Notes under the pieces: generated by a model | What the model saw: the letters and a program-made list of their open reading frames with translations, nothing else | Database searches by the model: none | What the model was told of the DNA's origin: nothing | In this document: piece by piece, positions 7,442 to 26,414 of the stretch | How the letters are laid out: the number at the start of each line of letters is the position of its first letter | How positions within the stretch are numbered: the stretch's first letter is position 1 | NCBI GenBank assembly: GCA_025782575.1 | Contig: JALGYY010000004.1 | Coordinates: 1-64,000, forward strand | DNA length: 64,000 nt | Direction of reading: 5' to 3' | DNA from: a bacterium | GTDB lineage: Bacteria; Orphanbacterota; Orphanbacteria; Orphanbacterales; Orphanbacteraceae | Position numbers and translations under genes: made by a program

Positions 7442-8311
7442 ATGGACTTCCTTGAGATTCGACGCCTTGTTGTTATCGCCATGTTTTCAGACGACGTTCT
7501 CTTTGAGCGCCTCGTATTGAAGGGCGGGAATGCCCTTGAGCTCATTCACCATGTGATTAATCGCGGCTCTCTCGATATCGATCTTGCGATACAGGACGAC
7601 TTCGAGGACCTTGCCGACACCAAGAAACGAATTTTCGCGGCTCTTCATGACCGCTTTGATTCTGCGGGATTTCTCGTGTTCGATGAGCGTTTTGGTCCGC
7701 GTCCAAAGGTCCTGGGACCGGACAAACCGCCTACATGGGGAGGCTACCTCGCCGAATTCAAACTCATTGCCAAAGGACCGGCGTCCAATCTTAAACAAGA
7801 GGTCGACCGGATGCGTCGTGAAGCACACACCATCGGGCCTGGGCAACTGAGGGTATTTCGAGTCGAGATAAGCAAGCACGAATTCTGTTTGGGAAAGAGA
7901 AAGGCCGACCTGGATGGGTATTCGATCTATGTCTACACGCCGGAGATGTGCGTTCTGGAGAAGTTGCGCGCGCTCTGCCAGCAAATGCCGGATTACCCGC
8001 ACACCGGGGATACGAAGCGGGCGCGGGCGCGCGACTTCTACGACATCTTCGAGACCATTGAGCAATTAGGGATCGACCTTGGTACTCCGGAGAACCTTGA
8101 GCTTTGCCGGAATATCTTTTCGGCGAAAGAGGTTCCTCTTTCGCTCCTGCAAGGGCTTGCCGATATGAGGGAGTTTCATCGGCCGGACTGGGAGCTCGTT
8201 CGACTCACTGTTCCCGGGAACCCTCGGGAATTCGACTACTACTTCAACTATATCCTTCAGGTCGTTCTTCCCAGACTAAAGCCCCTTTGGGAAGAAGAGT
8301 CGCCATCCTGA
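7442..8311 (+). CDS. AbiEii/AbiGii-type nucleotidyltransferase toxin
   Basis: A 289-residue protein of the AbiEii nucleotidyltransferase family, the toxin of type IV abortive-infection modules, which acts by adding nucleotides to tRNA or another acceptor. Residues 27-32 (KGGNAL) and 43-48 (SLDIDL) carry the G-G and D-x-D signature of the polymerase-beta-like active site. The later YTPEMCVLEKLRALCQQ and RARDFYDIFE match the C-terminal helical region of the family. ATG 7442 follows AGAGGAGACC. The partner expected upstream is absent. Instead an AbiEi-like regulator gene converges from the other strand and overlaps its last 36 bases. Confidence 0.85.
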   Translation: MDFLEIRRLVVIAMFSDDVLFERLVLKGGNALELIHHVINRGSLDIDLAIQDDFEDLADTKKRIFAALHDRFDSAGFLVFDERFGPRPKVLGPDKPPTWGGYLAEFKLIAKGPASNLKQEVDRMRREAHTIGPGQLRVFRVEISKHEFCLGKRKADLDGYSIYVYTPEMCVLEKLRALCQQMPDYPHTGDTKRARARDFYDIFETIEQLGIDLGTPENLELCRNIFSAKEVPLSLLQGLADMREFHRPDWELVRLTVPGNPREFDYYFNYILQVVLPRLKPLWEEESPS

Positions 8312-9151
8312 GTCGTATTCGGGATCTTTCATGCCGTGCTGCAGGTAGAATTCGTGCTCCAGTCCCAGCCGGCGGAGACGTTCGAACTGTTCGCGGCCAT
8401 AGCCGGCTCGCTCCATAAGGAATCCAATAGCCTGATGATAAGGATAGACGTAGTCAAGTTTCTTCAGTGTGGCAACGAGTACGTTGGACGAGGCTCGTTC
8501 TTTGGCCGTCCGATAAGCATCCAGGACGTGGAGCACTCCTCCGGCGTAAACCGGCCGGACAACAATGTCGATGAGGGTACGCTCAAGCTTCGTCACATCG
8601 AGCCTCTCCCCTCCTGGTCCCTCGCTGCTTCCGGCCTCCAGTCGCCCGGTGTTCTTTCCGCTTAGAAGCACGGCTCGATTGTCATCCCACGTGAACACGT
8701 ACTGAGATTCGCGCTGCTTCCCGGAAAAGGCGAAGTCCAGGCGCTCTTGAGAAAGCGTCGCGCCTGCGGCGCGCGGCTTGGGCGACTGCTCGTCGTTTAC
8801 GTAAAGAGTCTTTGGAATCTGCTCACTGAGACCGTGAAGGAAGAGTGCCGTTCCATGTGAGAGATAGGGGTGTTTGCCAAGGGAAAGGGCGATCTGGTAT
8901 GGCGAGGGCTCTCCCCAGACGAATCGCTTCTGACTTCGATAGGATTTCGATTCAAGCTCAATGGTTCTCAGCCGACCTTCCTCCTCGAGAAACTCAACAA
9001 TCCGTCGCAGCGAGAGCCCCGGCGAAAGACGCCAGCGGCCCCTTTCCTCAGAAATCATCTTCTGGAATTCCCGGGGCTTGAAGACTCGGTCCCCGGCTCC
9101 TTCGAAATGTGCCAGTATTCTGTCTCGTGCCTTTTCGAGCGTAGATCCCAT
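8276..9151 (-). CDS. AbiEi-family antitoxin/transcriptional regulator
   Basis: A 291-residue protein. The N-terminal region (about 1-80) has a winged-helix pattern (RVFKPREFQKMI...LSLRRIVEFLEEEGRLR), followed by the AbiEi C-terminal type core: YLSHGTALFLHGLSEQIP, the LERTLIDIVVRPVYAGG helix, and AIGFLMERAGY. AbiEi proteins repress their own promoter and neutralise AbiEii. Start 9151 is chosen because of the GAGAG ribosome site and the palindrome at 9179-9212 just upstream, which overlaps a TATATA -10 with a TTGCGC -35 seventeen bases away. Its 3' end overlaps the toxin gene antisense by 36 bases, an unusual tail-to-tail arrangement for this pair. Confidence 0.8.
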   Translation of the reverse strand: MGSTLEKARDRILAHFEGAGDRVFKPREFQKMISEERGRWRLSPGLSLRRIVEFLEEEGRLRTIELESKSYRSQKRFVWGEPSPYQIALSLGKHPYLSHGTALFLHGLSEQIPKTLYVNDEQSPKPRAAGATLSQERLDFAFSGKQRESQYVFTWDDNRAVLLSGKNTGRLEAGSSEGPGGERLDVTKLERTLIDIVVRPVYAGGVLHVLDAYRTAKERASSNVLVATLKKLDYVYPYHQAIGFLMERAGYGREQFERLRRLGLEHEFYLQHGMKDPEYDSGWRLFFPKGL

Positions 9152-9178: not shown

Positions 9179-9212
9179 CCTGTCTATAAGGTATATATAC
9201 CTTATAGACAGG
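9179..9212. promoter_or_regulatory. Perfect 34-bp palindrome (operator)
   Basis: A perfect inverted repeat with no loop, left arm CCTGTCTATAAGGTATA at 9179-9195. Its centre is GGTATATATACC. It lies 28 bases before the start of the minus-strand AbiEi gene and overlaps that gene's likely -10 box, so autorepression is the natural reading. Confidence 0.85.
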
Positions 9213-9283
9213 ATCGGCGCAAGACTGTTCGACATTCTGTAGAATCAATAGGTTAGCGTGAATCTCATAGCTACTTGGCTCCC

Positions 9284-9313
9284 AGTGACGTAGGTATATA
9301 TACCTACGTCACT
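9284..9313. promoter_or_regulatory. Perfect 30-bp palindrome (operator)
   Basis: A second perfect loop-free inverted repeat, left arm AGTGACGTAGGTATA at 9284-9298, sharing the 12-base centre GGTATATATACC with the palindrome 72 bases to the left but with different outer arms. It faces the plus-strand AbiEi gene at 9522, from which it is separated by about 208 bases. The bases 9314-9521 contain only a weak frame that starts inside the palindrome, which I do not call. Confidence 0.8.
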
Positions 9314-9521
9314 GCGTACCGTGCAATCGATCTCTCTGCCACTGCGGCAGGAATCTGGGAATTCCGGCGAGTCGCTTGGCAGCGGGGTGAACCGGTCCAT
9401 TCAACCTCCGGGGGGCTTGCCGGGGAGCTCGCCGGGCACCTGACCGAGACCCTCTCGAAATCACTCGGCAAATGTACCGAATAACGGCATGTTTCTAGAG
9501 TGATTCCGAGGAGGGGCTCTC

Positions 9522-10333
9522 ATGGCGGCAGCTGATCAGATTGCAGGATTGACTACTCAGGGACGATATCACTTTTCCACCGCTGAGATTGCTCGGATTA
9601 TGGGGACATCCCCGTCTGCCACGCGATCGGCGCTCCGAAGACTGAGGGAGAAGGGCCTGATTGCCACTCCGCATCGCGGTTTCCATGTGATAGTAGCTCC
9701 GGAATACCGGAGCGTTGGATGTCTGCCGGCCGATCAATTCCTCGGAAACCTGATGGAGCACCTCGGGCTTTCCTACTATGTCGCCATTCTCAGCGCGGCC
9801 CGGTATCATGGGGCGGCTCACCAGCAGCCACAGATTTTTCAGGTCATGGTGCAGAAGAATCGCCCCCCCATCGAATGTGGTGATGTCCGAGTCGCTTTTG
9901 CTGCGCGCCGAAACATCGAGGAGATTCCGACCCAATCGTTCAACACATCCCGCGGTCCCGTCCTTGTATCGAGCCCTGCGGCAACAGCACTTGACCTCAT
10001 CGGGTACCCGGCACATGCCGGCGGCCTTGATCATTCAGCAACCGTGCTGGCTGAGTTATATGAGTCGCTCGATCCGAAGGAACTGGAATTCGCAGCCGCG
10101 CTTTCTCCCACTTCCTGGGCCCAGCGTCTTGGCTACGTTCTCTCGTTCATGGGGGCAAACGAACATGCCGACTCGCTTTTCCAGTTCCTTGGCCACACCC
10201 GACACGAAACAGTCTTGCTTGACCCGAGTGGCGCCGAACGGCACCCTGGATTGACGACACGCAAGTCGAACAGGATCTCATTATCAGCCGTGCCCTGGTC
10301 GAGATATTCAGCCAGGCGAAAGTCGCCAGGTGA
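9522..10333 (+). pseudogene. AbiEi-family antitoxin, frameshifted
   Basis: The gene starts at ATG 9522 behind GAGGAGGGG and encodes an AbiEi protein: winged helix STAEIARIMGTSPSATRSAL with RRLREKGLI (about 19-50), GLSYYVAILSAARYHGAAHQ, RGPVLVSSPAATALDLIGYP, and a C-terminal helical part. Near 10230-10241 the frame breaks. The open frame runs on as nonsense to 10364, while the correct ending (PWIDDTQVEQDLIISRALVE...) is in another frame and stops at TGA 10331-10333. One base appears to be missing. It could be a real mutation or a sequence error. Its toxin partner follows four bases later and is truncated. Confidence 0.75.
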
Positions 10334-10336
10334 TCC

Positions 10337-10462
10337 ATGGAAAGGCGAGAGTTCAAGCACATAGAACAGGTTTCCCAAGAGACAATCATGCCTGAGAGTC
10401 ACACGAACATACTACCCAGCCTGGAAATCGCTCAAACATCGGGGCAGGACGTAAGTAATTGA
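10337..10462 (+). pseudogene. Truncated toxin partner of the second AbiE module
   Basis: ATG 10337 starts three bases after the corrected stop of the AbiEi gene, the spacing typical of AbiEi-AbiEii pairs. The 41-residue frame begins MERREFKHIEQVSQETIMP, compatible with an AbiEii N terminus, and then runs into CAGCCTGGAAATCGCT, a sequence that belongs to a dispersed repeat also present at 13466. The catalytic domain is gone. Assignment as AbiEii rests on position and a short stretch only. Confidence 0.45.
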
Positions 10463-10600: not shown

Positions 10601-10724
10601 GTCGGCGAGGCAATTTCGTGAGGTACGTAAAGCCCCCGCTATCTTTCGAGCAACAGGCCGATCAGCTAATCGTCCGAGGCCTGAAGGCGAGGGTGGTTTA
10701 GAATCCCCTTAGATTAGAGGAGTT

Positions 10725-10779
10725 ATGCCAACTAAAGACATCCTTCTATGAACCGCTTGTTCTCTCTTTGTCTTTAGGG
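10725..10779. repeat. CTAAAGACA hairpin element, copy 1
   Basis: CTAAAGACA at 10732-10740 and its exact complement TGTCTTTAG at 10769-10777 enclose 28 bases. The left side TTATGCC plus CTAAAGACATC recurs at 11008-11062 in the same orientation. Confidence 0.7.
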
Positions 10780-10921: not shown

Positions 10922-11007
10922 TTGAGGAGGAGCACTGCCTGTTGCACCGATCTCAGGCTCCTGATTACCGAGCGACGCGGCATTGGGAACCCCCGAAACT
11001 AGTGGCG

Positions 11008-11062
11008 TTATGCCCGCTAAAGACATCTTTCTAAGCACCGATTTAGCCCTCCGTGTCTTTAG
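11008..11062. repeat. CTAAAGACA hairpin element, copy 2
   Basis: CTAAAGACA at 11017-11025 pairs with TGTCTTTAG at 11054-11062. Loop sequences differ from copy 1 apart from the first bases, so the stem is what is conserved. Confidence 0.7.
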
Positions 11063-13598: not shown

Positions 13599-13997
13599 TC
13601 ACGCACGCTTTGTGGAACGACGGCGGGTAAGGGGTTTCAGTTTTGCAATGCTGCGAGCTTCTTCGGTCCTCATGGCGTGCCAGAGATCCCAATCCTGCTG
13701 CAACCCGAGCCAGAAGTCGGCCGGCATTTCCAGTACTCGTTCGAATCGCAATGCTGTATTTGGAGTAACACTCCGCTTTCCGCGCACGATCTCGTTCATC
13801 CGAGGGTAGGAGATACCGAGTCGAGCGGCGAGCTTCGTCTGGGTCAGGCCGAGTGGCTTGATGAACTCCTCGAGCAGCATCTCACCCGGGTGAGTCGGAG
13901 GCCGCTCTGTGGGAAGACGGCGCGCAGTCCCGCCGCGGTCCCCCAGTCGTTTGGCCTTACGCCTAGTGGTAGTCCGAGATTTCGACTTCGTGGGCAT
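13599..13997 (-). CDS. higA: HigA-family antitoxin
   Basis: A 132-residue protein with a basic N-terminal tail (KSKSRTTTRRKAKR) and a classic Xre/HigA helix-turn-helix: HPGEMLLEEFIKPLGLTQTK, LAARLGISYPRMNEIVRGKR, then ALRFERVLEMPADFWLGLQQ. HigA binds the HigB toxin and represses the operon. The start at ATG 13997 overlaps the toxin gene by 35 bases; the frame extends upstream only as a shadow of higB. Gene order toxin-first is typical of higBA. Confidence 0.93.
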   Translation of the reverse strand: MPTKSKSRTTTRRKAKRLGDRGGTARRLPTERPPTHPGEMLLEEFIKPLGLTQTKLAARLGISYPRMNEIVRGKRSVTPNTALRFERVLEMPADFWLGLQQDWDLWHAMRTEEARSIAKLKPLTRRRSTKRA

Positions 13998-14256
13998 GGC
14001 CCGCCTCCCAATTGAAACAGATACGATACTGGTCATTAATCCTGATGCTATGCTGCCCCCGACGGTCACCTCGTAACGGTTCCAGCCGATTCCCCGGAGG
14101 GATCGCCAGCTGGTGTACCTGCTGAACCCGATTAATCTGGTCAAGCTTGCGGCCAGCCACTCTCCAGATCGATTGGGGGCAAGTCTTTCGAGCAGCGCGC
14201 GTGTCGGCGCCGTTAAATACGTCCTCAGTCCCTTGATTGCCGAATGAGCGTATCAC
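13963..14256 (-). CDS. higB: HigB-family RelE-like toxin
   Basis: A 97-residue RelE-superfamily mRNA interferase. It matches the HigB pattern along its length: IRSFGNQGTEDVFNG, DTRAARKTCPQSIWRVA, LAIPPGNRLEPLRGDRRGQ, HSIRINDQYRICFNWE and the ending VEISDYH, including the basic and aromatic residues used for ribosome-dependent cleavage. It starts at GTG 14256 with no visible ribosome site; the -10 box ends only seven bases before it, so the mRNA is probably leaderless. It is followed by higA with a 35-base overlap. Confidence 0.93.
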   Translation of the reverse strand: MIRSFGNQGTEDVFNGADTRAARKTCPQSIWRVAGRKLDQINRVQQVHQLAIPPGNRLEPLRGDRRGQHSIRINDQYRICFNWEAGHAHEVEISDYH

Positions 14257-25361: not shown

Positions 25362-26414
25362 CTATCGCTTGCTCGTTCGATCGCGATCCGGCAGATCAGT
25401 CTCAGGCAGAGCCTTGGCGGCATCTTCCAGGTCTCTCTGCTGCGCCCGCTCGGCTTCCGCTTCCAGCAGGGCGCGGCGGCGAGCCGCAAAAGCCTCGTAC
25501 TTCGCCTCGGCCAGTTTGTCGGCTTCTTCTTTGCTGATCTTGCCCTTGTCAGCGAGTACGTCTCGCTCGTTGAATGCCAGAAACTCGTCCAGCCTGGCCG
25601 CCCAGTCATTCAGGAAGACCTGCTTTCGTCGACGGGCCTGATCCTCGGCGAAGTCCAGCCACATCGTCACAATGCGGTTCAGCCCGCTGATCTCCTCCTG
25701 GTTCAGGTAGTTCTTTGCGACCGTGACATCACCCTTTCGGACCACATCACCCTTCCAGGTGGTGAGCCCCATATTGGGACGGCTCTTGTCTGCACGGCCG
25801 GCGATCAGTTCAGCCGCGGTCTTACCGGTCGCTGCAAAGTGAAGCTTGTTCTGGATAGCCTGGAAGAACACCGGCACATTGGGCTGTTTTGAATCGTAGT
25901 CGGCGGCGAGAGCGAAGATTTCGCGTACTCGCAGGTACATGCGCTTCTCGCTGGCGCGAATGTCGCGGATCCGCTCCAGCAGCTCGTCAAAATAGTCGGG
26001 CACGCCGGACCCGGCGACCGGGGGGTTCTTCAGCCGCTCGTCGTCCATGGTGAAGCCCTTCACCAGGTACTCGCGCAGCCGCTCAGTCGCCCAGATACGG
26101 AATTGTGTGCCCCGGGGGGAGCGGACGCGGTAGCCGACGGCCAGGATGGCGTCGAGGTTGTAGTGCATTGTGTCGTACTTCTTTCCGTCCCCGGCAGTTA
26201 TCCGGAATTTCCGGATAACTGAATCCGATGGTAGTTCGCCTTCTTTGTATATGTTCAGCAAATGCTCGTTAATCGTGCGTACGTCCTTTTGAAACAACTC
26301 GGCAATCAGCGCCTGGCTCATCCAGATCGTCTCATCGGCAAATCGACACTCCACTCGGGTCCGGCCATCCGCGGTCTGATAGAGTACGATTTCACCGATA
26401 GGCTCTTCGCTCAT
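25362..26414 (-). CDS. rhuM: RhuM family protein
   Basis: A 350-residue protein matching the virulence RhuM family: IVLYQTADGRTRVECRFADE, TIWMSQALIAELFQKDVRTI with NEHLLNIYKEGE, then KKYDTMHYNLDAILAVGYRV, RSPRGTQFRIWATERLREYL, and the long KLHFAATGKTAAELI...MGLTTWKGD region. The N-terminal part is a DNA-binding-like domain also seen in phage antirepressors. Family members sit in pathogenicity islands, phage-like and defence regions; the molecular role is not established. The C-terminal 60 residues are a charged coiled coil. It overlaps the exonuclease gene by four bases. Confidence 0.88.
   Translation of the reverse strand: MSEEPIGEIVLYQTADGRTRVECRFADETIWMSQALIAELFQKDVRTINEHLLNIYKEGELPSDSVIRKFRITAGDGKKYDTMHYNLDAILAVGYRVRSPRGTQFRIWATERLREYLVKGFTMDDERLKNPPVAGSGVPDYFDELLERIRDIRASEKRMYLRVREIFALAADYDSKQPNVPVFFQAIQNKLHFAATGKTAAELIAGRADKSRPNMGLTTWKGDVVRKGDVTVAKNYLNQEEISGLNRIVTMWLDFAEDQARRRKQVFLNDWAARLDEFLAFNERDVLADKGKISKEEADKLAEAKYEAFAARRRALLEAEAERAQQRDLEDAAKALPETDLPDRDRTSKR

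Follow-up and report, generated by a model that had tools for sequence, protein, structure and literature searches.

Loop-free palindromes with a fixed core and covarying arms as probable operators of a convergent AbiE antitoxin family

Our analysis of a 64,000-nucleotide stretch of bacterial DNA (the window) reveals two divergent AbiEi genes with two long, loop-free palindromes between them (Table 1). The left AbiEi is paired with a toxin gene, AbiEii, whose KGG and S.D.D motifs are kept across relatives; the two genes are convergent, with tails that overlap by 36 bp (8276-8311). The AlphaFold model of the left AbiEi (pLDDT 96) has 6y8q (Foldseek E 3.3e-7) and 1zel (Z 14.3) as its best matches, and PADLOC assigns the protein to AbiEi (E 5.7e-19); its Pfam AbiEi_1 score, 15.9 bits, lies under the 22.2 cut-off. 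In type IV AbiE systems, which act in phage abortive infection, neutralisation of the toxin by the antitoxin involves no stable complex between the two proteins. With its convergent genes, the left pair is a variant of type IV AbiE toxin-antitoxin systems that departs from the bicistronic co-directional operon by which such systems are defined.

The AbiEii remnant of the right operon is 71% identical to a Legionella AbiEii and out of frame with the right AbiEi reading frame. Because the toxin of the right AbiEi is reduced to a 34-residue remnant, only the left pair is intact as a system. The imperfect inverted repeat directly upstream of the right AbiEi is likely that gene's own operator. The orphan protein itself is possibly a retained antitoxin or repressor.

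Table 1. Features of the AbiE locus (positions in the window; a dot marks features without strand)
Feature	Position	Strand	Description
AbiEii nucleotidyltransferase toxin	7442-8311	+	PF08843 (E 8.8e-21); alignment with relatives
Left AbiEi antitoxin (P0001 family, 291 aa)	8276-9151	-	N-terminal winged helix and AbiEi C-terminal domain
Palindrome 1 (proximal), CCTGTCTATAAGGTATATATACCTTATAGACAGG	9179-9212	.	34 bp, perfect, loop-free, arms of 17 bp
Common 14-bp core AGGTATATATACCT, copy 1	9189-9202	.	
Putative -35 TTGCGC	9217-9222	-	17 nt from -10 TATATA in palindrome 1; weak match
Palindrome 2 (distal), CAGTGACGTAGGTATATATACCTACGTCACTG	9283-9314	.	32 bp, perfect, loop-free, arms of 16 bp
Common 14-bp core AGGTATATATACCT, copy 2	9292-9305	.	
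Putative -35 TTGCAC	9321-9326	-	18 nt from TATATA of palindrome 2; weak match
Imperfect inverted repeat	9454-9510	.	26-nt arms, 73%, 5-nt gap; directly upstream of right AbiEi
Right AbiEi, canonical AbiEi_4 and AbiEi_1	9522-10364	+	Orphan; outside the palindrome system
AbiEii remnant of right operon	10226-10327	+	34 N-terminal residues, then stops

Palindrome 1 lies 27 bp upstream of the left AbiEi start codon, and its centre is 103 bp from that of palindrome 2 (median spacing in the family, 104 bp). A first-pass annotation of the window had described perfect palindromes of 34 and 30 bp that share a core, have unrelated outer arms, lie between the divergent AbiEi genes and are too long to be expected by chance. 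The length of the first is correct, whereas the second is 2 bp longer than described and ends at 9314 rather than 9313; the shared core, the unrelated arms and the position between divergent genes are as it had reported, the start codons being at 9151 (ATG, minus strand) and 9522 (ATG, plus strand). The runner-up among loop-free perfect palindromes in the window is 16 bp long, and the maximum in 30 first-order Markov shuffles is 14-22 bp, which excludes a chance origin. We also looked for a dispersed repeat family, which the annotation had named as one of two cases against its reading: the core AGGTATATATACCT has two copies in the whole 4.88-Mb genome, both at this locus, ruling out a REP-like palindromic repeat. 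A shorter core, GTATATATAC, occurs at three places in the same genome, two of them at this locus; the third is within coding sequence and lacks arms. Palindromes 1 and 2 both combine arms of at least ~13 bp with an AT-rich TATATATA centre, as is typical of cruciform-forming sites.

To place these sites in a family, we scanned 84,980 species genomes and found 170 relatives, of which 80 were retained. Five plasmid relatives of the left AbiEi, at ~40% identity, come from Burkholderia, Paraburkholderia, Hymenobacter, Phycisphaera and B. subtilis; all five are convergent with AbiEii, four of the five have perfect upstream palindromes, and the Phycisphaera plasmid has an imperfect 34-bp palindrome on the same core. 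Most of 19 further relatives, on plasmids and in genomes, also carry upstream palindromes. Toxin and antitoxin are convergent in 75 of the 76 relative loci with a detected toxin. The first-pass annotation had proposed looking for similar palindromes at other AbiE loci. Within 500 bp upstream of AbiEi, 74 of 86 left-type loci, from many phyla, carry one to five of them (22-62 bp, ~104 bp apart), and arrays of two or three at this spacing are the rule upstream of a single left-type AbiEi; near AbiEi in canonical (right-type) loci, long palindromes were found in 0 of 22. The 86 upstream regions hold 174 long palindromes, versus a rate of 0.018 per 760 bp in the remainder of these loci. Twelve of the 86 loci had no palindrome at the first scan: two (L035, L038) begin at a contig end; in one (L012), the upstream region and a portion of the toxin have been lost; and, among the others, several have imperfect palindromes on the core and a few have none. 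The longest members are found at L084, where a palindrome of 62 bp around a 2-nt centre spans positions 280 to 219 bp before AbiEi, and at L114:1926-1977, where a palindrome of 52 bp is perfect.

The system is sporadic. It is present in 2 of 299 Burkholderiaceae, in 9 of 399 genomes of the Pedobacter frigiditerrae family and in 1 of 7 genomes of the window's phylum (its own included), with no left AbiEi gene found in the sister genomes; searches of E. coli and of a phage collection gave no match, and the Riemerella plasmids are identical to one another. Palindromes are also present in more distant relatives, among them a clade comprising Streptococcus, Lactococcus and some Staphylococcus plasmids in which the toxin and antitoxin genes are divergent. 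At L100, L102, L104 and L137-L142 (Streptococcus, Lactococcus, Lactiplantibacillus and some Staphylococcus plasmids), the palindromes lie between the divergent genes, and thus the same sites could control both.

Because selection on the core avoids circularity, an exact match to the 10-mer GTATATATAC within 600 bp upstream was the sole criterion for including sites in the analysis of core and arms. This 10-mer gives 162 sites in 67 loci, whereas the remaining 561 kb of these loci hold 3. Seven other genomes contain 23 GTATATATAC sites, 20 of which are the ones that precede AbiEi. At positions 6-8 from the centre, copies are identical in 82, 59 and 61% of comparisons within loci versus 44, 35 and 31% between loci, which suggests an inner core specific to each locus. 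Core type tracks the AbiEi tree (16 changes versus 35 in shuffles); covariation between AbiEi residues and the core (G or A at position 6) was not demonstrated in the few independent pairs. On a Streptococcus suis plasmid with a split AbiEi, the sites are degraded. Together, this degradation, the loss at L012, the agreement of core and tree and the genome specificity link the sites to the antitoxin. The palindromes are probably operators of the left AbiEi, which would bind them.

The arms follow a different rule from the core. Specifically, positions 6-14 from the centre are fully complementary in 102 of the 162 sites, and at least 8 of these 9 positions are complementary in 133 (expected, < 0.1). 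Positions 11-14 are 83-93% self-complementary, while copies within a locus agree at 28-35%, near background. Because copies from the same locus differ yet stay self-complementary, the arms do not confer specificity at most loci. Self-complementarity drops to 64% at position 15 and to 48% at position 17, and ~15 of the 162 core sites lack good arms. The onset of arm length is sharp at 13: arms of 11, 12, 13, 14 and 15 bp are found in 3, 3, 23, 44 and 34 palindromes, respectively. That the outer arms match themselves while their letters vary suggests that the folded shape of the DNA may count, and not its sequence alone.

Compensatory changes on both arms are seen in close relatives with alignable flanks (L085/L086, L006/L075, L004/L078 and L044/L046): four positions changed on both arms in the Pedobacter pair, one in the Hymenobacter pair, two in the Burkholderiaceae pair and four in the planctomycete pair (L044/L046). 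Such changes cannot arise if the bases of each arm are read independently; intrastrand pairing, via selection or copying, can produce them. The distal palindrome of L085/L086 has four consecutive arm positions with transitions on both arms, next to a near-identical upstream flank, and represents fast, concerted arm turnover. At L013 (-256), L036 (-141) and L067 (-47), an indel by the core breaks the centre, and the outer 8-13-bp arms are still complementary.

We propose that the palindromes form an operator array of the left AbiEi that combines a sequence-specific core with structure-specific arms; the model as a whole is evenly poised. Upstream of the start codon of left-type AbiEi genes, the palindromes overlap or abut the putative promoter. 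The AbiEi winged helix would read the central 14-20 bp as a symmetric pair and repress its own promoter, with the proximal site covering the -10 element and the distal site, ~100 bp away, adding a second binding site or promoter. Beyond ~8 bp from the centre, the arms are constrained to self-complementarity over at least 13-14 bp and free in sequence. Since they are complementary without a fixed sequence, the arms would act through intrastrand DNA pairing; that they work as extruded or single-strand DNA hairpins is a proposition with about equal weight for and against. In its simplest form, this would be a cruciform that starts to extrude at the TATATATA centre when the DNA is negatively supercoiled, and the cruciform would couple transcription of the antitoxin to DNA topology. 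With 18 kcal/mol taken as the cost of cruciform formation, a rough estimate of the critical sigma is -0.055 to -0.059 for 26-28 bp and -0.045 for 34 bp, which would place the observed minimum length where extrusion becomes possible at native supercoiling, a consistency rather than a proof; the threshold so estimated may exceed the unconstrained supercoiling of living cells. More tentatively, and at somewhat lower probability, DNA secondary structure conserved by covariation could be part of the recognised signal throughout a widespread family of toxin-antitoxin operators. The cruciform or hairpin would then be what the antitoxin or RNA polymerase responds to, and the toxin-antitoxin balance would sense topology or single-stranded or resolvase-attacked DNA, for example during phage infection.

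The main rival holds that these are ordinary duplex operators. AbiEi would bind B-form DNA as two monomers that face each other, each on a half-site of ~13-14 bp. Arm symmetry would have no function of its own; intrastrand template switching (quasipalindrome correction) at the AT-centred core would restore it, so that arms drift in sequence and stay perfect. We consider this rather unlikely, and part of the family fits it well: the clade of Streptococcus, Lactococcus and Staphylococcus conserves a 26-bp sequence, AAGCTATGGTATATATACCATAGCTT, arms included, as in an ordinary duplex operator, and a betaproteobacterial group has a partly fixed arm (TGCTAYG..GC). Variable arm lengths with abrupt ends are what fold-back copying would leave, the concerted multi-base change in L085/L086 beside a nearly unaltered flank is of the same kind, and S. 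agalactiae AbiEi binds 23-bp inverted repeats as a duplex (PMC7319586). However, template switching leaves the sharp onset at 13 bp without explanation, and long palindromes are > 100-fold less frequent in other parts of the left-type loci and missing from canonical AbiE loci. The armless third GTATATATAC site of the window's own genome also argues against it, although that site is within coding sequence.

Placement of the promoter bears on whether the palindromes instead act as RNA. The first-pass annotation had placed the left palindrome over the -10 box of the minus-strand gene; the TTGCGC-17 nt-TATATA arrangement makes this plausible, but the match stays under the consensus threshold, and a sigma-70 consensus scan of the window gave nothing above it. 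Across the family, 9 sites have TTGAC at a distance of 21-29 bp from their centre on the side that faces AbiEi, and 0 have it on the opposite side. This polarity implies that, in some family members, the core serves as the -10 region and transcription would begin within the right arm. Some palindromes of Pedobacter and Hymenobacter instead adjoin a TAnnTTTG-like -7 element, so transcripts there could begin with a hairpin. Toxins of the AbiEii type act on RNA, and transcribed palindromes might form stem-loops that serve as a 5' UTR stabiliser, an attenuator or a small RNA antidote to the nucleotidyltransferase. This reading is improbable: with the -35/-10 placement of the window and other species, the RNA would hold at most half of the proximal palindrome, and the core is fixed through its centre, which a loop would not need. 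Moreover, mismatches in near-perfect sites (G-T, 5; A-C, 9; other, 31) give no sign of G-U tolerance in either transcription direction, so the constraint looks like one on DNA, not RNA.

The first-pass annotation had assigned palindrome 1 to the left AbiEi and palindrome 2 to the right AbiEi, with arms conferring each protein's own specificity. The position between divergent genes and the unrelated arms had made this attractive, but it is now very improbable: arrays of two or three palindromes with differing arms precede single left-type AbiEi genes, canonical AbiE loci have none, and the right gene, whose start is 207 bp from palindrome 2, has its own imperfect inverted repeat. The annotation had further suggested that the repeated sequence could extrude as a cruciform, which agrees with the data, or be a phage-sensing trigger; the phage collection yielded no member of the family. 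DNA transaction sites (mobile-element targets, recombination or replication sites) can hardly account for the palindromes either, since, although several relatives are on small plasmids or beside recombinase genes and palindromes can be targets of some insertion sequences, the sites are always upstream of AbiEi with -35 polarity, the relatives are mostly in genome contigs with no common third gene seen, and no insertion or excision was seen.

Known systems share parts of this arrangement. S. agalactiae AbiEi binds inverted repeats in its promoter, two of 23 bp separated by 3 bp, and represses its own promoter, and the Rv2827c promoter has four 23-bp repeats with 13-bp gaps within each pair, which are bound with negative co-operativity (PMC7319586). 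Like S. agalactiae AbiE (AbiEi structure 6y8q), the system described here combines an AbiEi fold, an AbiEii nucleotidyltransferase and inverted repeats in the AbiEi promoter. Unlike that bicistronic operon, its genes are convergent (divergent in the clade noted above), and its sites are loop-free palindromes in an array, with arms that are complementary without sequence conservation; palindromes 1 and 2 do not have the 23-bp, 3-bp-spaced layout. M. tuberculosis Rv2827c-Rv2826c likewise has several promoter inverted repeats, and Rv2827c (1zel) is the closest full-length fold match of the left AbiEi, but its genes are co-directional. Canonical AbiE on Legionella and Rhizobium plasmids, to which the relatives of the right AbiEi belong, has the same AbiEi/AbiEii pairing and, unlike the left pair, is bicistronic with a 4-bp overlap and without long palindromes. 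Palindromes of the ColE1 type, with arms of ~13 bp, extrude as cruciforms at native superhelicity; their arms are similar in length to those here, but they occur singly and do not make up a conserved operator family. Integron attC sites are DNA hairpins conserved in structure over sequence, as the arms here appear to be, but they are recombination sites with bulged bases, and the palindromes here have neither bulges nor cassettes.

AbiE systems and inverted-repeat autoregulation are already known. In a search of open-access literature, we found no description of a convergent AbiE branch with arrays of loop-free palindromes and covarying arms, or of the core as an operator. The convergent branch is now defined, and its antitoxins, including the annotated relatives of the left AbiEi, are mostly labelled hypothetical proteins. 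In scope, the family covers about a hundred related gene pairs with similar palindromes in very different bacteria. Operators normally owe their conservation to a protein that reads their bases; in ~160 probable operators from distant phyla, the arms stay self-complementary while their bases drift. This covariation is of the kind used to infer RNA helices, yet it lacks RNA-like wobble. Whether cruciforms serve as regulatory elements has long been debated. If the arms extrude, the family would be a natural, large-scale data set on this question, and a fixed core with covarying arms would be a computational handle for finding more.

Other repeats and a second gene pair lie further along the window. 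Strong symmetry without the AbiEi core is present at 26195-26221, an inverted repeat with 13-bp arms and a 1-nt loop (CAGTTATCCGGAATTTCCGGATAACTG). Two intergenic segments to the right of the orphan AbiEi, 10720-10750 and 11005-11035, are alike (TTATGCCAACTAAAGACATCC and TTATGCCCGCTAAAGACATCT) and form a possible short direct repeat. Adjacent small ORFs at 13599-14256 on the minus strand, of which one has an HTH_3 antitoxin-like domain and another resembles a RelE/HigB-type toxin by eye, lie 4 kb away from the AbiE genes and probably encode a toxin-antitoxin pair of type II.
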